DNA of 64,000 bases. Source: Solimonas fluminis. GTDB taxonomy: Bacteria > Pseudomonadota > Gammaproteobacteria > Nevskiales > Nevskiaceae. Below the pieces are notes generated by a model. That model did not search any database, was not told where the DNA came from, and was given only the letters and a program-made list of their open reading frames with translations. The position numbers and the translations under genes were made by a program. Positions 8,114 to 20,886 of this stretch are shown piece by piece (within the stretch, counting starts at the first letter, position 1; every line of letters begins with the position of its first letter). The stretch spans positions 186,001 to 250,000 of the forward strand of contig NZ_PSNW01000003.1 in the NCBI RefSeq assembly GCF_002930645.1, in the 5' to 3' direction.

Positions 8114-8860
8114 TCAGGTCTTCGAGACGATTCGCTCGCCCAGCGCCGGCCACAATCGGAGGAGCAGCGGCAGGAAGCGCACCGCGCCGGGCCGGACCTC
8201 GGACCGGCCCTTGCGAGTCCCGGCCAGCGCCTGCGCCGCAACCTGCTTCGCGGGCAACTTCGGCACTTGCCGGTGCGCGACCGATGGGGTGTCGACCACG
8301 GGCGGCAGCAACTCGGTAACGGTGATTCCCAGGGGCGCGAGCTGTCGGCGCAGTGACTTGGAAAGACTGTGCAGCGCGGCCTTGGCGGCCGAATACAGCG
8401 GCGCACGAGTCGCGGGCGCCAGTGCATACCCGGAACTGACGACCAGGATGGCGGCCGGGTACGAGCGGCGCAGCAGCGGCAGGAACTCCGCAATCAGGTT
8501 CACCGCTCCCTCGGTGTTGCTGCGCAACTCCAGGGAAAGATCCAGGCCGGAAAGATCGGCGGTGAAATCGATCTCGCGCGAGCCGCCCGCGTTGCTGACG
8601 AGCAGGTGGACCGCGGGAACAGCCTCGGCAACCCGAGCGGCGAACTCGCGCACCGCGGCGCGGTCGGTGACGTCGCAGACGGCGGTGCCGATGCCGGGAA
8701 AGCCGAGCGTCAGGGCAGCCAGCTTCCCGGGGTCCCGGGCGCAGGTGAACACCGTCCAGCCCTCCGCATGCAGCTGGCTGACGATCGCCTTGCCGATGCC
8801 CGAAGAGCCACCGCTGACTACCGCAACACGTGCTGCCGAAACAGATTTCGATGCGTCCAT
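8114..8860 (-). CDS. Short-chain dehydrogenase/reductase
   Basis: The 248-aa protein has the Rossmann cofactor motif SGGSSGIGKA near residue 16, the NAGG motif near 90, a catalytic Ser in VVSSGYALAP and the YxxxK pair in YSAAKAAL near 156-160, all at classical SDR spacing. The C-terminal part resembles DltE-type SDRs. Substrate unknown. It is the last gene of a leftward operon whose other members suggest oxidation or reduction of an acyl-CoA or alicyclic intermediate. Confidence 0.93.
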   Translation of the reverse strand: MDASKSVSAARVAVVSGGSSGIGKAIVSQLHAEGWTVFTCARDPGKLAALTLGFPGIGTAVCDVTDRAAVREFAARVAEAVPAVHLLVSNAGGSREIDFTADLSGLDLSLELRSNTEGAVNLIAEFLPLLRRSYPAAILVVSSGYALAPATRAPLYSAAKAALHSLSKSLRRQLAPLGITVTELLPPVVDTPSVAHRQVPKLPAKQVAAQALAGTRKGRSEVRPGAVRFLPLLLRLWPALGERIVSKT

Positions 8861-8884: not shown

Positions 8885-9376
8885 TCAGAGGTAGCGGCCC
8901 AGGAGCGGACGGGAGGCTGCGGCCTCCAGCTCCATCTGGCGCTGAAGATCACCGGCCACGAATCGTTCGATCGTGCCGCCGACCACGGGCAGGCTGCAAC
9001 GCACTTGCCAATCATGGCGCAGTTCGGTACCGGCCGGACAGCAGATCGCGCGCATTTCGCAGCGCAGCTCCACCGGCAGCCCTTCTAACTCGATCTCAAC
9101 CCTGCCGGCGCCTTCGGCGGCATCCCAATAATCCCTATGCTCAAGGGTAGAAACCGCCGGCACCAGCTTCTTGATCAGGGCCGGCACCGGAGCATCGCTT
9201 CGCATGGTCCGCCGGATCCGGATGTAAAACCTGCCGCCCGAATGGCTGTGCTCCAGGACCTCGCTGCTCAGCATCGCCATGGCCCGAAGCTTGTCCTGGT
9301 GAAAGGACAGATCAGTCATCGCCCGCAGCACTGCCCCTGGAGGGACCGGGTAAACGACGGAGATGGATTTCTTCAT
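8885..9376 (-). CDS. DUF2505 (SRPBCC-superfamily) protein
   Basis: The 163-aa product begins MKKSISVVYPVPPGAVLRAM and has the alternating strand pattern and C-terminal helix (TIERFVAGDLQRQMELEAAA) of DUF2505, a START/SRPBCC-like fold often found beside acyl-CoA metabolic genes. Its start codon overlaps the stop of the acyl-CoA synthetase gene (ATGA), indicating translational coupling. A lipid or hydrophobic-ligand binding role is a family-level inference only. Confidence 0.75.
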   Translation of the reverse strand: MKKSISVVYPVPPGAVLRAMTDLSFHQDKLRAMAMLSSEVLEHSHSGGRFYIRIRRTMRSDAPVPALIKKLVPAVSTLEHRDYWDAAEGAGRVEIELEGLPVELRCEMRAICCPAGTELRHDWQVRCSLPVVGGTIERFVAGDLQRQMELEAAASRPLLGRYL

Positions 9377-11325
9377 GCCTTGCCATTCAAGGTGAAGGGA
9401 AAGGGAAACTTGCCGAGGACCTGCCGCGCCGCTTCCGGGGATGCGTTGATTCCCAGCTGCACGTGAACCGTCAAACCCCGGGACTTGTCGTCGGCCACGG
9501 TGATCTGCAGGATCCCGACATCCGCCGCCCGCAGCGCGCCTTCCAGGGTTTCGCGGGTTTCCCGGTGCTTCAATGCCGGCTTGAAGATCTTGCCGACCGC
9601 CGTCAGCGGCATCTGCTCGATGATGCGGACATGCTTCGGCAACGCCGCACGCTCGGTGATTTCCCTTGTCAGGAACTCCAGAAGCTCGGCCTCGGAGGCG
9701 CTTGCGCCGCTCCGCAGCTGGACGTAGGCCACCGGGATTTCCCCGGCATGGGCGTCGGGCCGCCCCACCGCCGCCGCGATTTCGACCGCGGGATGCCGGT
9801 GCAAGGGCTCCTCGATGCTGAGCGGATCGATGTTGTGTCCGCCACGGATGATCAGTTCCTTCTTTCGACCCGTGAGATAGAAGTAACCCTCGCCGTCACG
9901 GCGTGCCAGGTCGCCGGTGTTCATCCAGCGCCGGCCGTCGCCGCAATCAATCCACAGTCCCTTGTTCTGCGTTTCCTCGCGGTAGCCGGCAAAGACGTTC
10001 GGGCCCGAGACCAACAGGACCCCCACTTCGCCATCGGCGCAGTCACGCTCGTAGCGGCCGTTCTCGTCCAGCAATACGGCTTTCATCGCTTGGCCCGGCA
10101 CGCGCAGGCCAATGGACCCGATCCGGCGGTCGCCGAGGGGCGGATTGACGCTGCTGACGCAGGTGGCTTCGGTCAGGCCGTAGCCCTCGAGGATCTTGAT
10201 GCCGGTCCGCTGCTGGAATCCGCGGAACACCTCGATCGGCATCGGCGCCGCGCCACAAAGGCCGTATTCCAGTGAACTGACGTCGCGGCTTCCGATCGGC
10301 ACCTGCAGCAGGCCCGCGTAGAGCGTCGGGACGCCGCTGAAGAAATTGACCCGGTGCCGCTCGATGACTTCCCAGAACCGCTGAACCAGGCCGGGCCCAC
10401 GGTAACCCTGCGGCGTCCCGAGGATCACATGGGCGCCGCGCGAGAACGGCAGCAACCCGGTCACCAGCACACCGTTGACATGGAACAGCGGCAATCCGCA
10501 GAAGGCGACCTTGCCCGGCCCGATGCCATCCCCGAGGAAGCGTCCGGCGCTCCAGGCGTTGGCGACCTCGTTGCGATGGCGCCGTACGGCAATCTTCGGA
10601 AGCCCCGTCGTGCCGCCGGTGCAGAAGTAGGACGACGTGTCATCGGGCGAGATCACACGCCCACTCGACAGTCGGGTGCCGTCCTGGCGCAGCACGCATC
10701 GGCCGAAGTCGTGGACCCGGAGCGCCTTCGGGATCGCCTTGCGCACGCCTCGCAGGCCATGCAGCCGGTATTCCTCGCGCTTCTGCAGCAGACGGGCCAC
10801 CGGGGCCTTGGCGCCTCGAACCCGGTCCGCCAGATTGACCAGTACCAGATGTTTCAGGCTGGGCAGCTTGCCGAGAATGCTCGACACCTTGGGCCACAGG
10901 TCCGTACCCGGGAATGGCGCGAGAGTGACCAGGATGCTGGCGCCGGCAGCGTTCAGAAGCTCCGCGATCGCCGGAGCCTCCAGCAGGGGGTTGATGGCGA
11001 AGACGATGCCCGTGGCCTCGCCGCCCCAGATGACGAAGTGGGTCTCGGGCAGGTTCGGCAGTACAAAGGCGATGACCGTGTCCTTCGTCGCTCCCAGCTG
11101 GTGGAAGAAATTGGCGGTCCGGTTGATTCCCATCATCAAGGAGCGATAGGACCAGACCTGTGGCTTGCGATGCTCGTCGGTGGTGAGAAAGAAGCTCAGC
11201 GCCGGTGCGGCGGGATCGACTCCGGCTCCCCGGCGGATCATCTCGTAGGTGCTGTGCGGAAGGTCGGCGGGCAGGCCGGCAGCCTCGATGCTCTCGACAT
11301 CGGCGAGCGTCGCGATACCGTCCAT
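9373..11325 (-). CDS. AMP-forming acyl-CoA synthetase
   Basis: The 650-aa protein carries the ANL-superfamily motifs: phosphate loop SSYFCTGGTTGLPK (about residue 230), GYGLTEATCVSS (about 390), NTGDLARRDGEGYFYLTGRK (about 470) and the catalytic Lys near the C-terminus in LTAVGKIFK. It would activate a carboxylic acid to its CoA thioester through an acyl-adenylate. About 60 residues follow the usual end, longer than common family members. It sits 5 bases after the FAH-family gene in one operon. Confidence 0.93.
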   Translation of the reverse strand: MDGIATLADVESIEAAGLPADLPHSTYEMIRRGAGVDPAAPALSFFLTTDEHRKPQVWSYRSLMMGINRTANFFHQLGATKDTVIAFVLPNLPETHFVIWGGEATGIVFAINPLLEAPAIAELLNAAGASILVTLAPFPGTDLWPKVSSILGKLPSLKHLVLVNLADRVRGAKAPVARLLQKREEYRLHGLRGVRKAIPKALRVHDFGRCVLRQDGTRLSSGRVISPDDTSSYFCTGGTTGLPKIAVRRHRNEVANAWSAGRFLGDGIGPGKVAFCGLPLFHVNGVLVTGLLPFSRGAHVILGTPQGYRGPGLVQRFWEVIERHRVNFFSGVPTLYAGLLQVPIGSRDVSSLEYGLCGAAPMPIEVFRGFQQRTGIKILEGYGLTEATCVSSVNPPLGDRRIGSIGLRVPGQAMKAVLLDENGRYERDCADGEVGVLLVSGPNVFAGYREETQNKGLWIDCGDGRRWMNTGDLARRDGEGYFYLTGRKKELIIRGGHNIDPLSIEEPLHRHPAVEIAAAVGRPDAHAGEIPVAYVQLRSGASASEAELLEFLTREITERAALPKHVRIIEQMPLTAVGKIFKPALKHRETRETLEGALRAADVGILQITVADDKSRGLTVHVQLGINASPEAARQVLGKFPFPFTLNGKA

Positions 11326-11330
11326 GGTGA

Positions 11331-12452
11331 TCAGGCTCCGGCGACGATGCGGTTGCGTTGCACACCCAGGTCGACCCGGCCATCCGCGCTGCGGATGCTC
11401 GCCTCGACCACGTCACCCGGCTTCAGGTATTGGGTGCGTTTGGACTGCACCTTGAAGAAAATCTCCCACTTCTTCCTTTCCGGCAGCAGGGCGCCGATCC
11501 GCTGCTTGGCCGGCGAGGGCACGGAGAGCGCGCATCCCGCCGGCGTGCCGGTGGCGATGAGGTCACCGGGCTCGAAGTCCTGCACCTGCGAGAGCTCCGT
11601 CAAGGTCTCGGCGGGGCCGTAGACCAGGTTGGCCGTGCTGTCCTGCTGGCGCGTCTCGCCGTTGACCGTCAGCTTGAGTTGCAGTTCCTTCAGCACGCCG
11701 ATGTTGCCGGCGTCGAGCAGGGTGATGTGCGGTCCCACCGGGCCAAAGGTACGGAAGCTCTTGCCCTTGTAGAACTGCATCTGCGGGATCTGCACGTCGC
11801 GGGCGGAGTAGTCGTTGACGATGACGGCGCCGGCGATGTACTCGTGCAGGTTGGCATCGGTCACCTTGACCGGGCCGCGGATCGCCTTGCGGATGATCAG
11901 GCCGAGCTCGATCTCATAGTCCAGGAACTGGACCATGCTGGGGCGGATGACATCCGTGTTCGCCGGCGAGATGCAGCTCTGCGCCTTGGTGAAGATCATG
12001 TTGTAGGTCTTCACATCCGGGTCCATGCCCGACTCGATCATGTGCTGGCGATAGTTGGCGCCCTGGCAGACGAACTGCTGGTTCTCGGTCACCGGCGACA
12101 GCAGTCGGACCTCGGAAAGCGCCAGTGTGCCGCCGTCGAGCCCCTTCAACGACAGTCCGGCGCTGATGAGAGCGCCCGTGGTCGGGAATTCTCCCGGAAT
12201 GGGCGTGATGAGATTGCTGCGGATAGCGCCCCATTGGGCACGGTTCTGATGCTCGAAGCGGACGATGTTGACAGGCATGGCGGGGACTCTGGAGGCGGAT
12301 GGAAGATCCGGGCGTGGATCGGAACGGATGGTGGAATCTGGGAATGCGGCTTCGGCAGGCACGACGACCGGGGCGGCGCCACATGCGACAGCGGCCGCAG
12401 CGCCTGCCTTCAGCAGCCGGCGGCGCGTGGGATCATGCGAGGCAGAGCTCAT
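11331..12452 (-). CDS. Fumarylacetoacetate hydrolase-family enzyme with a Tat-type signal
   Basis: The C-terminal about 280 of 373 residues form an FAH domain: metal ligands are expected in FLDYEIELGLII and NDYSARDVQ, with GDLIATGTPAGCA and LKPGDVVEASI near the end. Family members cleave C-C bonds of dioxo acids or act as hydratases/decarboxylases, typically after ring cleavage. Unusually, the N-terminus carries a twin-arginine leader (TRRRLLKAGAAAAVACGAAP, about 9-28), which suggests export to the periplasm; most FAH enzymes are cytosolic. An internal Met (MPVNIVRFE, near residue 59) could start a cytosolic form. Confidence 0.88.
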   Translation of the reverse strand: MSSASHDPTRRRLLKAGAAAAVACGAAPVVVPAEAAFPDSTIRSDPRPDLPSASRVPAMPVNIVRFEHQNRAQWGAIRSNLITPIPGEFPTTGALISAGLSLKGLDGGTLALSEVRLLSPVTENQQFVCQGANYRQHMIESGMDPDVKTYNMIFTKAQSCISPANTDVIRPSMVQFLDYEIELGLIIRKAIRGPVKVTDANLHEYIAGAVIVNDYSARDVQIPQMQFYKGKSFRTFGPVGPHITLLDAGNIGVLKELQLKLTVNGETRQQDSTANLVYGPAETLTELSQVQDFEPGDLIATGTPAGCALSVPSPAKQRIGALLPERKKWEIFFKVQSKRTQYLKPGDVVEASIRSADGRVDLGVQRNRIVAGA

Positions 12453-12467: not shown

Positions 12468-13556
12468 TCAGCCGAACAGCTTGGCCAGGGTGACCAGCTT
12501 GCCGACCGACAAGTCCGGGCTGCGGCGCAGGTTTCGGATCAGCGCCGCGATATTGGCGGGCGTCATCTTCGGCTTGGTGAAACTCGACGGCATCACCGGC
12601 CCCCATTGGGCCATGGCCTCCCGGCTCACCGGGTGATGACCCGTCGGGCGATCAGCGGTGAAAAGATCGCCGTCGCAATAGTGCTCATGCTTGTCGCCCC
12701 AGGGGTCCTGCCAATAGTCGAAGATCTGGCTGCCCAGGATATGGCGCCCGATCCCCCATGCGTGCCGCCATCCGCGTTCACGCAGGACGCGCTGGCCCAT
12801 GCCGACCGCATCGGCATCGACCACCTCGAAGGCACTGTGGCTGTACATCGGCGCGAAGCCCTGGGCCATGGCCAGGGTGTGATGGTCGGCCGGCGTATCG
12901 CCGAGGTCGAGACGGAAGAAGGTCACCGCCGGCGAGCCGTCGGGCAGTAGCTGGACATCGCTGGGAATCAGGCCGAAATGCTGCGTGTACCAGGCGCTGG
13001 TGGCCTGGTAGTCGGCCACCTCGATCACCACATGTCCCAGGCGCAGGACATCGGGCGGCTGCGCGGCCGGGCGCTGCGTCGCGTTGACGCGCCGGCGGTC
13101 GCCGGCCAGGTTGAAGTAGATCGGATCGCGGTGAGGCAGTTCATCGACCTGGCTCTGCTCCGCGACCACCTCGACCCTGAAGCCGGAAGGGTCCGTGAGG
13201 TCCAGGACGTACCCACCCCCAGGATAGGTCATGGAGCGGATCGCTCCAGCTCCGGGCAGCCGGGCCAGCCGCTCCAGGTCGGCATGACCCGACACCAGGA
13301 GGCCGAAGCCGCGGAATCGCGCCTGGGGACCGCGATGCACGCGGTAGCAATACGGCGACGGACCGGTGCCCCGCATGAACAGCAGGTCTTCCGTGCGGCT
13401 GGCCCGGTGCAGCCCGAAGTCCGCCAGGAACTGCTCGGCGCGCTGCAGGTCGGGCCTCTCGAAGATCAGGTACGCCAAGGCCTGGGCTTTCACGGTCGGG
13501 GAGGGATGCCGCGCCGGTTGAGGCGTGGTCATGAGGCTGGAGTCCGTCTGGGTCAT
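12468..13556 (-). CDS. VOC-family extradiol ring-cleavage dioxygenase
   Basis: The ATG at 13556 has an AAGGTGG site at good spacing; the product is 362 aa with two glyoxalase/VOC modules (about 30-140 and 175-300). Candidate iron ligands are the His in LGHVVIEV, the His in HHTLAMAQG and the Glu in GDKHEHYCD, an arrangement typical of type I extradiol dioxygenases with two domains. It would open a catecholic ring in the meta position. It is the first gene of the leftward operon and is divergent from the acyltransferase gene, with a putative regulatory site between. Confidence 0.85.
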   Translation of the reverse strand: MTQTDSSLMTTPQPARHPSPTVKAQALAYLIFERPDLQRAEQFLADFGLHRASRTEDLLFMRGTGPSPYCYRVHRGPQARFRGFGLLVSGHADLERLARLPGAGAIRSMTYPGGGYVLDLTDPSGFRVEVVAEQSQVDELPHRDPIYFNLAGDRRRVNATQRPAAQPPDVLRLGHVVIEVADYQATSAWYTQHFGLIPSDVQLLPDGSPAVTFFRLDLGDTPADHHTLAMAQGFAPMYSHSAFEVVDADAVGMGQRVLRERGWRHAWGIGRHILGSQIFDYWQDPWGDKHEHYCDGDLFTADRPTGHHPVSREAMAQWGPVMPSSFTKPKMTPANIAALIRNLRRSPDLSVGKLVTLAKLFG

Positions 13557-13590
13557 GGGAAAGGCCACCTTAGGGATATCTGATGATGAA

Positions 13591-13616
13591 TTTATCTATA
13601 ACTGATAAACTTGTCA
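13591..13616. promoter_or_regulatory. Putative TetR operator in the divergent catabolic promoter
   Basis: TTTATC and GATAAA form an inverted repeat (13591-13609), and the minus strand reads TGACAAGTTTATCAGT across 13601-13616. The same TGACA-N4/5-TATCAG arrangement occurs before the TetR gene (18858) and before the PhyH gene (19805). Position between two divergent operons and recurrence near the regulator suggest a shared operator; this is an inference. Confidence 0.5.
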
Positions 13617-13681
13617 AATATGGTGAAGATATCTATGATGATCGCCGTTCGCCCACTATTCGGGCTTGAAGAGATGCCCCG

Positions 13682-14539
13682 ATGGCCGCCCCGGCACCCG
13701 CTGAATTGCCCCCTTTCGATCCCCCGTCGCCCAGGCAGATGCGGCGGTCCTTCGCCCTGCCGCGGCGCTGGTTCTACCCGGAGTTTCTCGGGCTCTGGGA
13801 ACTGGATCTGAAGCGGCCGGCCCTGTTTGTCGGCAATCACACGCTGTTCGGATTGACCGACGCGCCGCTGATGATCGAGCACCTCTACACGCAGTACGGC
13901 GTGATGCTGCGCGGCCTGGGCGACCGCGGGCATTTCCAGGTTCCGTACTGGGGGCCCTTCCTGGAACGCAACGGCATGGTCCTTGGCACGCCGGAGAATT
14001 GCGCCGCGCTGATGCGCCAGGGCCAGCACGTGCTGGTGTTCCCAGGCGGCGGACGCGAAGTCATGCGGCGCAAGGGCGAGGCTTACCGCCTGATCTGGAA
14101 ACAGCGCGCCGGCTTCGCCCGCATGGCCATCGAACACGGCTACGACATCATTCCCTTCGGTTCGGTCGGCCCGGACGAGAGCTATCGCATCCTGCTCGAC
14201 GCCGACGACGTGCAGAACTCGGCGGCCTGGCGCTGGCTGGCGAAGCGGTTTCCGCTCGATGAGATGACCCGCGGCGGCGACATGATCCCGCCGATCCCGC
14301 GCGGGCTCGGGCTCACCATCCTGCCGCGCCCGCAGCGCTACTACTTCGGCTTCGGTCCGCGCATTCCCACTGAACACCTCCAGGGCCGCCAGGGCGACAA
14401 GGACGTCGTCTGGGCCGTGCGCGAGCAGGTCGCCAAAGCGGTCGAGAGCCAGATCCAGCGCCTGCTGAGCTATCGCTCCGAGGACCGGCTGCAGAACTGG
14501 AGCCTGCTGCGGCGGTGGCTGGCTCCGCTGCAGGTCTGA
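13682..14539 (+). CDS. Lysophospholipid/diacylglycerol acyltransferase-like protein (PlsC superfamily)
   Basis: The 285-aa product has the acyltransferase block I as GNHTLFGLTDAPLM (about residues 51-64; H-x6-D, the variant found in the MGAT/DGAT-like subgroup), block III as LVFPGGGREVMRRKGEAYRL (about 119-138) and a following VGPDESY. Such enzymes transfer an acyl group from acyl-CoA to a glycerolipid or other alcohol. It begins the rightward arm of the catabolic cluster. The actual acceptor cannot be told from sequence. Confidence 0.85.
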   Translation: MAAPAPAELPPFDPPSPRQMRRSFALPRRWFYPEFLGLWELDLKRPALFVGNHTLFGLTDAPLMIEHLYTQYGVMLRGLGDRGHFQVPYWGPFLERNGMVLGTPENCAALMRQGQHVLVFPGGGREVMRRKGEAYRLIWKQRAGFARMAIEHGYDIIPFGSVGPDESYRILLDADDVQNSAAWRWLAKRFPLDEMTRGGDMIPPIPRGLGLTILPRPQRYYFGFGPRIPTEHLQGRQGDKDVVWAVREQVAKAVESQIQRLLSYRSEDRLQNWSLLRRWLAPLQV

Positions 14540-14571
14540 CCGCTTTCACTTCCTCTTTCTTCAGGAACTCC

Positions 14572-16218
14572 ATGAACCCATCATCCCAGGCGACGCCGGC
14601 GTCGCTGCCCGAGAGAGTCTCTGTCCTGGTCACGGGTTACGGGCCCGTCGGCGCCGCCATCGCCTGCCTGCTCGGCCGCTACGGAGTGCATGCACTGGTC
14701 ATCGACAAGGCCAGCGACATCCTGCTGCACCCGCGCGCGATCGCGCTGGACAACGAAGCGCTGCGCATCCTGCAGATGGTCGGCCTGGACGAGCAGGCCT
14801 TCGAACGGGTGGCCATTCCCGAGGTCCGCATGCATTCTCCCTATGTCGGACAGTTCGGGCGGGTGAACAGCACCGGGTCGATCGACGGCCACGCCAAGCT
14901 GGTGACGTTCTTCCAGCCGGACCTGGAAAGGGCCTTGCGCCGACAGCTTGGCGTCCTGCCTACCGTCCGGACCGCCGGTGGCGTCGAGCTGCTCGATTTC
15001 GTCGAGGAAGCTGGCGCGGTGCGGGCGCGGGTCCGGGATGCCTCGGGGGTCGAGCGCGAGATTCTGGCCGACTTCCTGGTGGGTGCCGACGGCGCCAACT
15101 CCTTCGTCCGCCGCAAGATCGGCCAGGACTTCGGTGGAGAGACCTACCCCGAGGACTGGCTGATCGTGGACGGCCGCAATGTCCCGAAACCCATCGATCA
15201 CATCGAGTTCATCTGCGACCCGAACAGGCCGATTCCCCACATGCCGGCACCGGGCCAGCGCGAGCGCTGGGAATTCATGCTGGCACCGGGCGAAACCCGT
15301 GAGCAGATGGAGACCGACGAACGCATTGCCGGCCTGCTCGCGCCCTGGGGCCGCCTGGACCAGATCACCGTCGAGCGCCGGGCGGTCTACCGCTTTCATG
15401 CCCGCTGCTGCGACCAATTCCAGAAGGGCCGCGTCTTCCTCGCCGGCGACGCCGCGCACATCACGCCGCCCTTCGTGGGCCAAGGGCTGGTCGCTGGGCT
15501 GCGCGATGCCGCCAACCTGAGCTGGAAACTTGCAGCGGTGGTCCATGGCAGGGCTGAACCCGGCATCCTGTCGACCTACGACCAGGAACGCCGCCCGCAC
15601 GCGCGCGCCATGATCGGCCTGGCCAAGCTGATGGGCCGCATGGTGATGCCGCGCAACGCCGTTGTCGCGCTGCTGACGCATGGCACCGTGCGGCTGCTGC
15701 GCCTGATCCCGCCGCTGAGGAACTTCATCGACGACCTGGGCATCAAGCCGAAGAACCAATTCGCCAAGGGACTGTTCGTGCGCGGTCGCGCCCGGCTGAA
15801 GCGCGGCGGCCAGATTCCCCAAGGCTGGATCCGGCGTTCCAATGGCGAAATCGGCCTGAGCGATGCCGCGCTGGACGGGGGCCTCACGCTCGTGGGCTTC
15901 GGCGTGGACCCTCAGACCCTGCTCGCTACCTCGCAGCGGCAAGCCTGGGAGGCGGCCGGCGGCCAGTACCTCCAGGCCTGCCATCGCAGCCAGTCGCTGC
16001 ACCGTGGCCCCCATGCCGTCGAAGACCTCGATGGGGCGCTGATTCCGGGCGCCGCGCCCTTCGGCTGGATCGCCGTCGTGCGGCCTGATCGCGTCGTCCT
16101 GCACGATGGTCCATCCACGGATGCGATCCGCATCGTGGAGGAGTCGCTGTCGTTGCTGCGAGGCCGCGCCCCCCTGATTTCCCGCCAACCGCAGAGCCGG
16201 GGGGACTCCCACGCATGA
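14572..16218 (+). CDS. FAD-dependent aromatic hydroxylase, MhpA-like
   Basis: From the ATG at 14572 the protein is 548 aa. It has the FAD Rossmann motif GYGPVG (residues 22-27), the DG motif region FLVGADGANSFVRRKIG (about 165-180) and the second FAD motif GRVFLAGDAAHITPPFVGQG (about 285-305), all typical of class A flavin monooxygenases close to MhpA (3-(3-hydroxyphenyl)propionate hydroxylase). It could ortho-hydroxylate a phenolic substrate, supplying a catechol for the extradiol dioxygenase. Its stop overlaps the start of the DUF1302 gene by ATGA. Confidence 0.9.
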   Translation: MNPSSQATPASLPERVSVLVTGYGPVGAAIACLLGRYGVHALVIDKASDILLHPRAIALDNEALRILQMVGLDEQAFERVAIPEVRMHSPYVGQFGRVNSTGSIDGHAKLVTFFQPDLERALRRQLGVLPTVRTAGGVELLDFVEEAGAVRARVRDASGVEREILADFLVGADGANSFVRRKIGQDFGGETYPEDWLIVDGRNVPKPIDHIEFICDPNRPIPHMPAPGQRERWEFMLAPGETREQMETDERIAGLLAPWGRLDQITVERRAVYRFHARCCDQFQKGRVFLAGDAAHITPPFVGQGLVAGLRDAANLSWKLAAVVHGRAEPGILSTYDQERRPHARAMIGLAKLMGRMVMPRNAVVALLTHGTVRLLRLIPPLRNFIDDLGIKPKNQFAKGLFVRGRARLKRGGQIPQGWIRRSNGEIGLSDAALDGGLTLVGFGVDPQTLLATSQRQAWEAAGGQYLQACHRSQSLHRGPHAVEDLDGALIPGAAPFGWIAVVRPDRVVLHDGPSTDAIRIVEESLSLLRGRAPLISRQPQSRGDSHA

Positions 16219-18746
16219 AGCTCCTGAAATCCCCGGGGGCCGCCGGCATTGCGGCGCTCGCCATCATGTCCTCGCCTGCGCTGGCCCTGGACTTCGAAAT
16301 CCCGATGGGAACCGGTGAAGGCATCGACGCCGTGCTCAATACCAGCATCACCGTCGGCGCCGGCATTCGCATGGAGGATCGCTCCTCGGATCTGGTCGGA
16401 AAGTCCAATCTCGATCCGCAGGCCTGCACCGGCCCCAACGGCGCTCATCAAAGCTGCCAGGGGCTGTTCAGGAATCAGGTTTTCCCTGCCCAGCGCCTGG
16501 TGGCCGCGCCCGGCGCGGCCTCGATCAACAACGACGACGGAAATCTCAACTATGGCAAGGGCGACCTCTTCTCCTCGCCCGCCAAGGTGACCAGCGACCT
16601 GACGCTTCGCTTCGGCTCGGTCAGCTTCTTCGCCCGCGCGCTGTATTTCTACGACTTCACCAACAACGACTTTCGCGAATATCACCCCAACCGCATCACG
16701 GCGCGCAATTACCTGGACGTGGGTCGCGAAGTCTCCACTGCCCCGCTGTCGGCTCCGGATCTGCCCACGCTGCTGCAGAATCCCTTCTCTCTCTTCACGG
16801 GCGTGATCGCCAGCCGCCCCTGGGCTCAGTACGGCCATGACGGCCGCCGCATCGTGTACGGTCCTGGCGGCGTGGTGCGCAATCGCCGCAGCGACGGAGA
16901 AACCCTGCGCCAGATCGGCTCGGACCTGCAGCTGATGGACGCGGTGGTGTTCGCGCAGATCCCGATGACGGACGACAAGGCCCTGACGCTGAAGCTGGGG
17001 CGCCAGACCGTGAACTGGGGGGAAAGCACCACCCTGGCGCTGAACAGCATCAATCAGGCCAACCCGATCAACGCCAACAACTTCTACCGTATCGGCCGCA
17101 CCGTGGAAGAAGTCTTCACGCCGATCGGCATGGTCTTCGCCAGCTTCGAGCCGGCCGAGGGGGCGACGCTCGAGGCCTTCTACCAGCTGGAGTGGAAAGC
17201 TGTCGAAGCCCCGGCACCGGGCAGCTATTTCTCGGACCTCGACATTGGCACCCGCAATGCGGTTTCGTTCGTGAACATCAGTACAGGCGGCGTCGCCGAG
17301 GATGAGGGGCAGTTCGCGGTCCCGCTCGACTCGCCGCTGACCGGCCTGAGCAACTCGAGCTCGGCGTTGCGCCGCCTCAAGGACGCCGAGCCGGCCTCCG
17401 GCGGCCAGTTCGGCATCGCATTGAAGTACTACATGGAGTCCCTCGGCAATGGCGTGGAGGTGGGCGCCTACTACATGAACTACCACTCCCGCCTCCCCCT
17501 GGCGAGCTTCTACGCCGCGAACGCCAGTTGTGCCCGGCGGGAAGGCAACGATCTGGCAATCGACGCCCGTGATCTGGCGACCTTCCTCGCCACCTGCCCG
17601 GACATTCCCTTCCTGCATTCGCTGAGCCACCCGGGGGAGTCGGCGGAACACGCCACCGACAGCGCGGCGGCGCTCGACACCGCCCGTGTCCAGCTGGAGT
17701 ATCCCGAGAACATCCATCTGGTTGGGCTCAGCTTCAACACCTCGATGGGTGACTATTCCTTCCAGGGCGAGGTCGCCTACCGCCCCAACCTGCCGCTGCA
17801 GGTCGACCTGCAGGACCTCGCCTTCGCCGCGCTGGGACCCACGCTGACCCGCTGCCACGACCGCCGCCTTGGCTGCCTGGGGTCCGCGGAACTGCTGAAT
17901 GTGGGCATCGGCTACGATGCTGACGGCCACGCGACGAACTGGGGCTCGAGTGACTTCGTGGACGCCAGCGGCAACACCCCGTACCCGGACCTCATCAACG
18001 TCGGCATCGGGCACGTGCCGGGCTCCGCGCGCGCCTTCCCGAGCTTCGTGACCGCCTACCGGGGCGGCCAGGTGGGCGAAAACCCTCCCTGCGCCGCCGG
18101 ACTTTCCGATGCCGACTATCACCGCGGCATGGACTGCCACATCCGCGGCTACGAACGCTTCGATGTCTACCAGTTCAACTTCGGCAGCACCCGCGTCTTC
18201 GGTCCGCAGGAAAACCCTTTCGCCGCCGACCAGATCATTTGGGTGACCGAATGGGGCGCCACCTGGGTGCCCGGCATTCCCTCGCTGGACGAGCTGCAGC
18301 TCGAGGCGCCCGGCACCTATTACCACGCCAGCGCCGGTGCCGACGGCTCCGGCGCCGACGGCTCGCGCCAGGCCTGCTCGCTCAACCCTGCCTGCTCCTA
18401 CGGACCGGACGGCATCCGCTTCAACCCGCACCAGGAAGACCTCTCCGGCTTCGCGGACGAGTGGTCCTGGGGCTACCGCATGATCGGCTTGTTCAGCTAC
18501 GAGAGCGTCCTGCCCTCGATCAGCCTTCGCCCGTCGATCGTCTGGTCTCACGATGTGCGTGGCACCTCGCCCGGACCGGCCGGCAACTTCGTGCAGGGAC
18601 GCAAGCAGGTCGATCTGTCGCTCGAAACCCGCTACCAGGACGCGCTGTCGTTCACCGTCGGCTACAGCTGGTTCACCGGCGGCGGACGGTACAACCTGTA
18701 CCGGGATCGGGACTACCTGCAGTTCTTCGCCCGATATCAGTTCTGA
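16215..18746 (+). CDS. DUF1302 family outer-membrane protein
   Basis: The 843-aa protein starts with a Sec signal peptide (cleavage likely after SSPALA) and has the DUF1302 layout: NTSITVGAGIRMEDRSSDLV, then LNYGKGDLFSSPAKVTSDLT, KLGRQTVNWGESTTL and a C-terminal strand ending in FARYQF with terminal Phe, as in outer-membrane beta-barrels. Family members occur next to steroid, phenol and other hydrophobic-compound degradation genes and are often paired with DUF1329, which is not present here. A role in uptake of the cluster substrate is inferred from context. Confidence 0.88.
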   Translation: MKLLKSPGAAGIAALAIMSSPALALDFEIPMGTGEGIDAVLNTSITVGAGIRMEDRSSDLVGKSNLDPQACTGPNGAHQSCQGLFRNQVFPAQRLVAAPGAASINNDDGNLNYGKGDLFSSPAKVTSDLTLRFGSVSFFARALYFYDFTNNDFREYHPNRITARNYLDVGREVSTAPLSAPDLPTLLQNPFSLFTGVIASRPWAQYGHDGRRIVYGPGGVVRNRRSDGETLRQIGSDLQLMDAVVFAQIPMTDDKALTLKLGRQTVNWGESTTLALNSINQANPINANNFYRIGRTVEEVFTPIGMVFASFEPAEGATLEAFYQLEWKAVEAPAPGSYFSDLDIGTRNAVSFVNISTGGVAEDEGQFAVPLDSPLTGLSNSSSALRRLKDAEPASGGQFGIALKYYMESLGNGVEVGAYYMNYHSRLPLASFYAANASCARREGNDLAIDARDLATFLATCPDIPFLHSLSHPGESAEHATDSAAALDTARVQLEYPENIHLVGLSFNTSMGDYSFQGEVAYRPNLPLQVDLQDLAFAALGPTLTRCHDRRLGCLGSAELLNVGIGYDADGHATNWGSSDFVDASGNTPYPDLINVGIGHVPGSARAFPSFVTAYRGGQVGENPPCAAGLSDADYHRGMDCHIRGYERFDVYQFNFGSTRVFGPQENPFAADQIIWVTEWGATWVPGIPSLDELQLEAPGTYYHASAGADGSGADGSRQACSLNPACSYGPDGIRFNPHQEDLSGFADEWSWGYRMIGLFSYESVLPSISLRPSIVWSHDVRGTSPGPAGNFVQGRKQVDLSLETRYQDALSFTVGYSWFTGGGRYNLYRDRDYLQFFARYQF

Positions 18747-18857
18747 CGATGGGGGCCGCTCGGCTGCCGGCGAATACGCGCTTCGCCGCGAAGGCCCGAC
18801 TGGTGGTGTGTTGCCCCGGGAATGACAAGCTTGCCGGGCCCATTTCCTCCTCATTCC

Positions 18858-18872
18858 TGACATAATTATCAG
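18858..18872 (+). promoter_or_regulatory. Putative operator before the TetR gene
   Basis: TGACATAATTATCAG lies about 30 bases before the tetR ATG in an AT-rich interval. It matches the motifs at 13601-13616 and 19805-19820 (TGACA followed 4-5 bases later by TATCAG). Position is suited to autoregulation. Confidence 0.5.
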
Positions 18873-18903
18873 ACTAGAACCCGTGCCCCATACGAGCCTT
18901 TCC

Positions 18904-19632
18904 ATGCCGAAGACATCCGCCCCGAAATCGAAGGCCGCCAAACCGGCCGCCGGGAAGAAAACCGAGGTTGTCGCCGAAAAGGAACCGCGCGGCGCGCGGC
19001 GCCGGCGTGAAACACGCACCAAGCTGCTGGATGCCGCCTTTCGCCTGATGGCCGAGCGCGGCATGGACGGCGTCGCCATCAACGAGATCACCGAGGAGGC
19101 GGACGTCGGATTCGGCTCGTTCTACAACCACTTCGAGTCCAAGGAAGCGATCTACGACGCCCTGATGAACACCGTGTTCGAGGACTTCGCCAAGCACCTC
19201 GACGAGCTGACGACGGGCATCGACGATTCGGCCGTCATGGTATCGCACTGCATCCGGTTCACGATCCTGCGCGCCCGCAAGGAGCCCACCTGGGGCAAGT
19301 TCCTGGTCCGGGAAGGCTACTCGGCCCGGGTACTCAGCCGCGGCTTGGGGCAGTTCCTCTTGCGCGACATCCTCAAGGGCGTCGCCAAGAAACGATTCAA
19401 ATCGCCTGATCTGCTGATGAGCTTCGTCGGTGTTGGCAGCATGGTCTTGGGTGCCATTGCGGCCAATGCGGAGGCGAGTTCGCTTCGCGGCCCGCTGAGC
19501 GAGCAGCTGCGGAAGATGGGGCTTGAAACCGACAATATCCCTGAGCGCGCCGCGACCCTGGCCCTCGTTTCCCTGGGCATCCCGGAGCGCGAAGCGGCAG
19601 CCATCGCCCGGTTGCCATTGCCCTCGCCCTGA
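18904..19632 (+). CDS. TetR-family transcriptional regulator
   Basis: I favour the ATG at 18904; a GTG at 18883 is possible. The protein (242 aa) has a Lys/Ala/Pro-rich N-terminal extension of about 35 residues. The TetR HTH follows: RETRTKLLDAAFRLMAERGM ... AINEITEEADVGFGSFYNHF ... SKEAIYDAL (about residues 40-90). The ligand-binding C-terminal half is not diagnostic. It lies between the DUF1302 and PhyH genes, and shared sequence motifs near three promoters suggest it controls the whole catabolic cluster. Confidence 0.92.
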   Translation: MPKTSAPKSKAAKPAAGKKTEVVAEKEPRGARRRRETRTKLLDAAFRLMAERGMDGVAINEITEEADVGFGSFYNHFESKEAIYDALMNTVFEDFAKHLDELTTGIDDSAVMVSHCIRFTILRARKEPTWGKFLVREGYSARVLSRGLGQFLLRDILKGVAKKRFKSPDLLMSFVGVGSMVLGAIAANAEASSLRGPLSEQLRKMGLETDNIPERAATLALVSLGIPEREAAAIARLPLPSP

Positions 19633-19804
19633 GGCCAGCAGCGCTCCCGGCCTCACGGAGGGCTTGGCGAAGGCGCCCCTCCGCAAGACGGAGCAGTGGA
19701 CACCCCCCGGGGGCGGCCTACCGTCCAGCCGGGCCGCAGCGAACACACTCCGGATGGATCTCTCTCCCGCTCGAGCAGGGCGCAGCCTTCACCGGTTCTT
19801 TATT

Positions 19805-19836
19805 TGACATTAATATCAGTTACGATTAACTTGTCA
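19805..19836 (+). promoter_or_regulatory. Putative palindromic operator before the PhyH gene
   Basis: TGACATTAAT (19805-19814) and ATTAACTTGTCA (19825-19836) form an imperfect inverted repeat, and the left half also contains the TGACA-N5-TATCAGT motif shared with 13601 and 18858. It sits about 37 bases before the gene start with a GGAGG ribosome-binding region after it, so it would overlap or abut the promoter. Confidence 0.55.
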
Positions 19837-19872: not shown

Positions 19873-20886
19873 ATGAGTTTCTCCGTCATGCCGAATCGCA
19901 TCCTCACGACTGAGGAAATCACCCGCTACCACGAGGATGGCGTCGTGATGATCAAGGGCGCGATCGACCCCAACTGGGTGAAGCTGATCGAAGCCGGTGT
20001 CGAGCGCGCCCGCGACGAGATGTCGATGGTCGGACGCTTCATGTCGCGCAAGACCCGCGGCTACCAGATGGATATCTTCCTGTGGAAGCGCATCGACGAA
20101 CTGCGCGACGCCATCTACTACGGCCCCTTTGCGCATTGGGCGCAGCAGTTGATGGGCTCCAACGAAGTGCGCTTCTTCTACGACCAGATGTTCGTGAAGG
20201 AGCCGGGTACCGACGCCCCGACACCCTGGCATCAGGATCTTTCCTTCTGGCCGATTCGGGGCGAGCAGATCACGTCGTTCTGGATTCCCCTGGATCCGGT
20301 CACGCGCGAGAGCAGCGGCCTGATGTACGTGCGGGGCTCCCATCGCTGGCCCCAGCGCTTCAAGGCGATCTCGCCGGACTACGTCGCCGCCATCATCGAC
20401 GAGAAGATGGACGATATACCGGACATCAATGCCAACCCGGAGCGGTACGAATTGCTCGACTGGGTGATGGAGCCGGGCGACATCCTGATGTTCCACCCGC
20501 TGACGCTGCACGGCAGCCACGGCAACATGCACCGCACGCGGCGTAGGCGCGCACTGGCGCTGCGCTGGACGGGCGACGACGTGGTCTATGCCCCCACCCG
20601 CAAGCGCATGCCGATTCATTACCGCCACTCATCGACGGTAGGCGGGGGCCTGCAGGGTGCTGCCTTCCCGCGCATCCTGCCGGCACACGAGCCCACGGAG
20701 CGCTTGGCCAGGCGTCTGCCGGAAAGTCCGGCGTTCGGCCGGGTCCTGGCCTCGGGCTGGCACAACTTCATGTCCTCCATGACCATGAAGACGCGCGGCA
20801 TACAAGCGCAACAGCTCAAGCAGACCTGGACTCAGCCCAAGGCACTCTCCGGAGACCCGGCCGGCTCCAGGGAACAGATCAGGTGA
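19873..20886 (+). CDS. Phytanoyl-CoA dioxygenase-family (PhyH) Fe(II)/2-oxoglutarate oxygenase
   Basis: Start ATG 19873 follows AGGGAGGA at good spacing; 337 aa. The facial triad is visible as H120-x-D122 (TPWHQDLSFW) and H213 (LTLHGSHGN), with a 2-oxoglutarate-binding Arg candidate at about 231 (RRALALRW). The reaction is probably hydroxylation of an acyl-CoA or a hydrophobic small molecule. It follows the TetR gene and shares the putative operator motif. Confidence 0.92.
   Translation: MSFSVMPNRILTTEEITRYHEDGVVMIKGAIDPNWVKLIEAGVERARDEMSMVGRFMSRKTRGYQMDIFLWKRIDELRDAIYYGPFAHWAQQLMGSNEVRFFYDQMFVKEPGTDAPTPWHQDLSFWPIRGEQITSFWIPLDPVTRESSGLMYVRGSHRWPQRFKAISPDYVAAIIDEKMDDIPDINANPERYELLDWVMEPGDILMFHPLTLHGSHGNMHRTRRRRALALRWTGDDVVYAPTRKRMPIHYRHSSTVGGGLQGAAFPRILPAHEPTERLARRLPESPAFGRVLASGWHNFMSSMTMKTRGIQAQQLKQTWTQPKALSGDPAGSREQIR

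Follow-up and report, generated by a model that had tools for sequence, protein, structure and literature searches.

Three copies of a short dyad as predicted operators of a RolR-type TetR repressor in a putative phenol-degradation cluster of Solimonas fluminis

Why do three promoter regions of a single catabolic gene cluster in Solimonas fluminis carry the same short motif? The cluster, which includes a gene for a TetR-type regulator (tetR), lies within a stretch of 64,000 nucleotides (contig NZ_PSNW01000003.1, positions 186,001 to 250,000, here referred to as the window). A preliminary description had read the motif as TGACA-N4/5-TATCAG and had suggested a single TetR regulon. From the motif, its conservation, its covariation with the regulator and the kinship and fold of this protein, all of which were computed, we infer binding, repression, inducer and pathway. 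The three copies are very probably (roughly 0.9) operators of the cluster's own RolR-type TetR repressor and would form one regulon. A RolR-type repressor with its operators is of a kind already known; the most interesting additions are the covariation between one residue and one operator base and a conserved 18-bp spacing of dyads in relatives.

Exact copies of TGACA-N4-TATCAG were found in the window at 13602-13616 (minus strand) between two divergent gene arms, at 18858-18872 (plus strand) before tetR and at 19805-19819 (plus strand) before phyH. All three sites have a spacer of four bases, and the form with five bases, which had been proposed alongside, had no match with fewer than two mismatches in the window. 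The position given previously for the tetR site was correct, and those for the other two (13601-13616 and 19805-19820) were each one base too long. In the whole genome (G000, 4,668,848 bp) these three were the only exact copies and the reversed control pattern had none. Base composition predicts approximately 0.44 copies per genome and 0.0006 per 6.25 kb. For a deliberately AT-rich background of 360 bp of intergenic DNA the probability of at least three copies was 2e-12. A chance origin of the three copies is excluded. With one mismatch allowed, 12 further places were found genome-wide (15 in total), compared to 2 for the reversed control. The three intervals had also been described as AT-rich, which holds for the arms (27% GC in the lowest 60-bp windows) and for phyH (33%) but only weakly before tetR, where the interval has 62% GC and the best 60-bp windows 45%.

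With its core of 14 bp, TGAYA-N4-TRTCA, the motif forms a dyad and lies partly inside larger palindromes, as noted before. The predicted operator O1 (13597..13622, minus strand) is a longer dyad of 26 bp (type CATAnTTGAYAAnnTTRTCAAnTATG) and separates the VOC/FAH/ligase arm from the acyltransferase/FAD-monooxygenase/DUF1302 arm. Predicted operator O2 (18852..18877, plus strand) is located 31 bp before the ATG of tetR at 18904, and predicted operator O3 (19799..19824, plus strand) precedes phyH. The relaxed dyad was present at five places in the genome, the three cluster sites and two others (TGAYANNNNTRTCA), both of which were left out of the regulon. One of these (L157) lies within an open reading frame, and the other (L161) precedes an unrelated alpha/beta-hydrolase frame, which is directly followed by a different TetR-like frame. 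As far as can be read from the sequence, the regulon of S. fluminis would therefore be this one locus. The L161 site (L161:1501-1514; C31:163226-163239 of the same genome) is a perfect dyad, TGATAGTAATATCA, immediately 5' of the hydrolase-like frame, and probably belongs to the adjoining TetR-like regulator.

To what extent the sites are conserved was analyzed in 61 related genomes including that of S. fluminis, of which 11 (S. fluminis and ten others) carried the TetR protein at E <1e-30. The ten were compared over approximately 19.5 kb each. Five of them (G003, G002, G010, G021 and G037) had an exact or near-exact motif at the cluster promoters, three (G011, G033 and G013) a dyad variant whose half-sites are TTGAA, and G032 a diverged copy; no site was found at the locus of G019. 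Of the 11 genomes with an orthologue, 5 had the exact motif, as did 5 of the remaining 50 (Fisher p = 0.012). Exact copies were also found at the promoters homologous to that of O1 in G003 (L046:15302) and G002 (L047:4027). A further scan of genome contigs, based on the best 80 of 498 relatives, yielded 76 distinct loci. These were mostly from Burkholderiales, besides Solimonas, Lysobacter, Myxococcus and two metagenome-assembled genomes (MAGs) labelled Hyphomonadaceae and Eremiobacterota. Loci L046, L048 and L049 were dropped from the counts as duplicates of L079, L081 and L147. Sites at the phyH/tetR promoters were additionally present in L050, L082, L083, L140, L147 and L153.

A position model built from the three window sites alone was then applied to the 460-bp region around the tetR start of 83 other loci, the own locus being excluded. 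With the 95th percentile of dinucleotide shuffles as threshold, 77 of the 83 regions scored above it with a 16-bp model and 79 with a 26-bp model, where about 4 were expected. The four regions below threshold in the 26-bp model were L111, L136, L148 and L055, and in L055 no site was found in the region upstream of tetR. Many of the loci are from closely related Burkholderiales, so the 83 are not independent observations. A count of 83 of 84 loci with a site came from a model that had been trained on these very regions and carries no weight here as a measure of significance. Wider searches added few homologues: 2 of 369 genomes of a class sample and 3 of 398 of a phylum sample had one, each figure including the own genome; one new homologue, L156, had a site between tetR and the VOC gene.

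Covariation, though through few events, links a single residue of the TetR recognition helix to the fourth base of the half-site. The comparison comprised 83 proteins, with L055 omitted here and from the tree since it has no site. Phenylalanine or tyrosine at position 70 (78 proteins) goes together with TGAC or TGAT, and TGAA was found in none of the 156 half-sites. Isoleucine is present in four of the 83 proteins, and all eight half-sites are TGAA. In the single protein with leucine the two half-sites differ, one being TGAA and the other TGAC.

At the promoters of relatives the dyads frequently come in tandem. Among 126 strong sites, 72 had a second core above threshold at offset -18 and 15 at +18, compared to an average of 0.2% elsewhere. 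Independent of any model, a strict TGA-N8-TCA was located 18 bp to one side of 59 of the 126 strong sites and of 12 of the 52 that are distinct in their flanks (0.01 sites per other offset). In the window, a weak second core (CGATTAACTTGTCA, 19823..19836, plus strand, core score 8.2) lies at +18 from O3 as a partial copy that fails the strict pattern, and a possible weak second dyad (AGATAAATTCATCA, 13584..13597, minus strand, core score 12.9) lies 19 bp from O1. The latter is uncertain because its spacing differs from the 18 bp found elsewhere. No tandem signal was found at tetR. Paired binding would thus be a trait of the family, as predicted from the promoters of relatives. Regulators of the QacR and CgmR type are reported to bind as pairs of homodimers to a long operator of 28-32 bp (PMC9210681). 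The pairing proposed for the related promoters resembles this; however, the second site is here a separate dyad 18 bp away, and its use is predicted.

Which known regulator does the protein resemble? The product of tetR (18904..19632, plus strand, 242 amino acids, a predicted RolR-type repressor) contains the domains TetR_N (PF00440, 54.7 bits against a cut-off of 24) and TetR_C_40. RolR of Corynebacterium glutamicum was the best solved relative by sequence (phmmer 6.8e-28) and also the best by fold (Z 21.6, root-mean-square deviation 4.4 over 193 residues, 33% identity; model with a predicted local distance difference test score, pLDDT, of 84.8). The structures 3aqt and 3aqs matched with Z 21.6 and 20.2, the next family with 17.5. 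The helix-turn-helix motif IxxxAxxGxGxFYxxF fits I62-F77 (ITEEADVGFGSFYNHF). RolR is a repressor (PMC3086911, PMC9210681). Its operator rolO is described with a repeat TGAAC-N4-GTTCA, to which a pair of dimers binds on 29 bp, and as a roadblock downstream of both transcription starts (PMC9210681). The two systems share the TetR fold and, for the predicted operators of the window, the 14-bp geometry of a 5-bp inverted repeat with an N4 spacer; RolR controls its own gene and a catabolic operon, rolHMD, as is predicted for the window protein and its cluster. In the alignment RolR has threonine at the place of residue 70, which together with its TGAAC half-site fits as a further, distant case of the covariation. 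The differences are the half-site (TGAYA in the window), the three predicted operators spread over approximately 6.2 kb, the overlap of O1 with -35 boxes instead of a position downstream of both starts, the meta-cleavage-type genes of the cluster and phenylalanine instead of arginine at residue 151. TetR repressors of the KstR and KstR2 type govern a catabolic cluster via several operators. The window similarly combines a TetR protein, a catabolic cluster and several predicted operators, but its TetR matches KstR (1.4e-7) and KstR2 (4.8e-6) more weakly than RolR. The kinship to RolR and the tandem 18-bp arrangement at related promoters go beyond the preliminary description.

The ligand residues were compared as well. 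The polar ligand residues of RolR are given as D94, R145, R148 and D149 (PMC3086911). Read from the alignment, the ligand residues of RolR correspond to D100, F151, R154, D155 and L148 in the window protein. Equivalents of the four polar residues are identical in 82, 79, 83 and 83 of 84 proteins, respectively, the own protein included. Where RolR has F107, L114 and F172, the relatives mostly have smaller residues (V/I, T and V). The window protein keeps three of the four polar residues and most relatives have the full set, which makes a resorcinol-like phenol the probable inducer.

The promoter regions allow weighing of other readings. A consensus scan found two promoter-like sites in the arms region, compared to 0.2 in shuffles: TTGTCA-17-TATGAT (13611..13639, plus strand, 10 of 12 matches) for the acyltransferase arm and TTGACA-17-TAAATT (13589..13617, minus strand) for the VOC arm. 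The -35 boxes of both overlap O1. In the regions upstream of tetR and phyH no promoter-like site passed the scan. It is improbable that the TetR-like protein acts at these sites as an activator or dual regulator: the overlap of O1 with both predicted -35 boxes suits repression and the relative RolR is a repressor (PMC3086911, PMC9210681). Very unlikely, and rejected here, is the explanation that the shared motif is mainly the -35 element (TTGACA) of sigma-70 promoters in AT-rich DNA and no operator. The overlap at the arms and a TTGACA in the phyH region speak for it; however, the motif has dyad symmetry and greatly exceeds a -35 box in length, no recognisable -10 element follows it at phyH or tetR, the 4.67-Mb genome contains no further exact copy and the motif covaries with a helix residue of TetR. 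Least probable is that the sites are operators of a regulator encoded elsewhere while the linked TetR binds something else: the genome has 32 TetR-like matches and the binding of the linked TetR is a prediction from sequence, but 77 of the 83 held-out loci have such a site before their tetR orthologue, and the sites covary with the recognition helix of the linked protein and share the geometry reported for the RolR operator (PMC9210681). The single regulon of the cluster's own TetR, as first suggested, is thus well supported by the held-out sites, the covariation and the RolR operator geometry.

Several observations weigh against this regulon. Only 5 of the 11 genomes with an orthologue have an exact copy, and in the others the motif is often degenerate. 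Six of the 83 held-out loci fail the 16-bp model, namely the four loci of the isoleucine/TTGAA class, L148 and L055. The more distant homologues L162 and L163 had no site scoring at least 12 in the 3.7 kb examined. In a tree from which the helix columns were left out, the isoleucine state needs two changes, of which the starred branches force only one, and the covariation accordingly rests on few independent events. Furthermore, the strict 18-bp pair is missing from the window, and the window protein has phenylalanine (F151) at the equivalent of R145, so that only three of the four polar residues are kept; this residue is found in 3 of the 84 proteins, the window protein included.

For the regulon of the cluster's own TetR the following mechanism is proposed. 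A TetR dimer would read the 14-bp dyad TGAYA-N4-TRTCA. Since the predicted -35 boxes of the two arms lie under O1, one dimer (or pair) bound there would silence both. The site before tetR would allow autoregulation, and that before phyH would bring a third transcript into the regulon. In relatives the second dyad 18 bp away may host a side-by-side pair of dimers, as reported for RolR. A phenolic substrate or intermediate, probably resorcinol-like, would bind in the C-terminal pocket and release the repressor. Derepression would then start ring hydroxylation by the FAD hydroxylase, meta-cleavage by the VOC protein, hydrolysis by the FAH-family protein and activation with coenzyme A by the ligase.

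The gene content of the cluster suggests such a degradation of a phenol, as judged from the protein families. The plus-strand arm consists of an acyltransferase (13682..14539, PF01553), an FAD aromatic hydroxylase (14572..16218, PF01494, with the subfamily cut-off of NCBIfam NF004829 reached) and a DUF1302 protein (16215..18746). It is followed by tetR and by phyH (19873..20886, plus strand), which encodes a PhyH-family Fe/2-oxoglutarate oxygenase. On the minus strand are a VOC-fold, extradiol-dioxygenase-like protein (12468..13568), a fumarylacetoacetate-hydrolase-family (FAH) protein (11331..12452), an acyl-CoA synthetase (9373..11325, scoring above the NF005714 cut-off), a DUF2505 protein (8885..9376) and, at the end of the arm, a short-chain dehydrogenase (8114..8860). 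Among the titles and abstract openings of the papers that literature searches listed, no description of this cluster was found.

Some loci of the relatives differ in composition. The TetR relatives in L080, L154 and L140, whose records are labelled Myxococcus, Eremiobacterota (MAG) and Hyphomonadaceae (MAG), are approximately 55-61% identical, and in L080 and L140 cluster genes adjoin them; the labels suggest horizontal transfer or binning errors. A second homologous tetR is located approximately 6-9 kb downstream in L099, L104, L118, L119, L120, L127, L132, L138, L144 and L145, each with its own operator-like site upstream. Such pairs would represent two regulons of one type, arranged in tandem, in Burkholderiales. 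L110 (Solimonas terrae) has four operator-like sites in a 20-kb stretch, and three of these lie away from tetR, which suggests a larger regulon. The PhyH homologue at L049:8365-8772 matches in two separate pieces, between which coverage is lacking, and may be broken or remodelled.

Taken together for the lineage, a broader picture can be offered tentatively. RolR-type regulators of proteobacteria, and of records labelled Myxococcus and Eremiobacterota, may read arrays of 14-bp dyads with their centres 18 bp apart, and one helix residue may set the fourth base (a pyrimidine for an aromatic residue; A for Ile, Leu or Thr). The pocket would keep the resorcinol clamp but be smaller at F107, L114 and F172. 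With these bulky residues replaced and the clamp kept, a resorcinol-type phenol that bears a side chain would act as the inducer and be degraded by the cluster via ring hydroxylation and meta-cleavage. An alkylresorcinol, which combines the proposed pathway with the RolR-like pocket, is put forward as a hypothesis only.

With these results a guess made from the sequence becomes a defined regulon with testable operators. Residue 70 and the fourth base of the half-site provide a simple candidate rule for operator specificity. Additionally, a cluster seen in many genomes is now tied to a known family of sensors, which gives a lead to its inducer.

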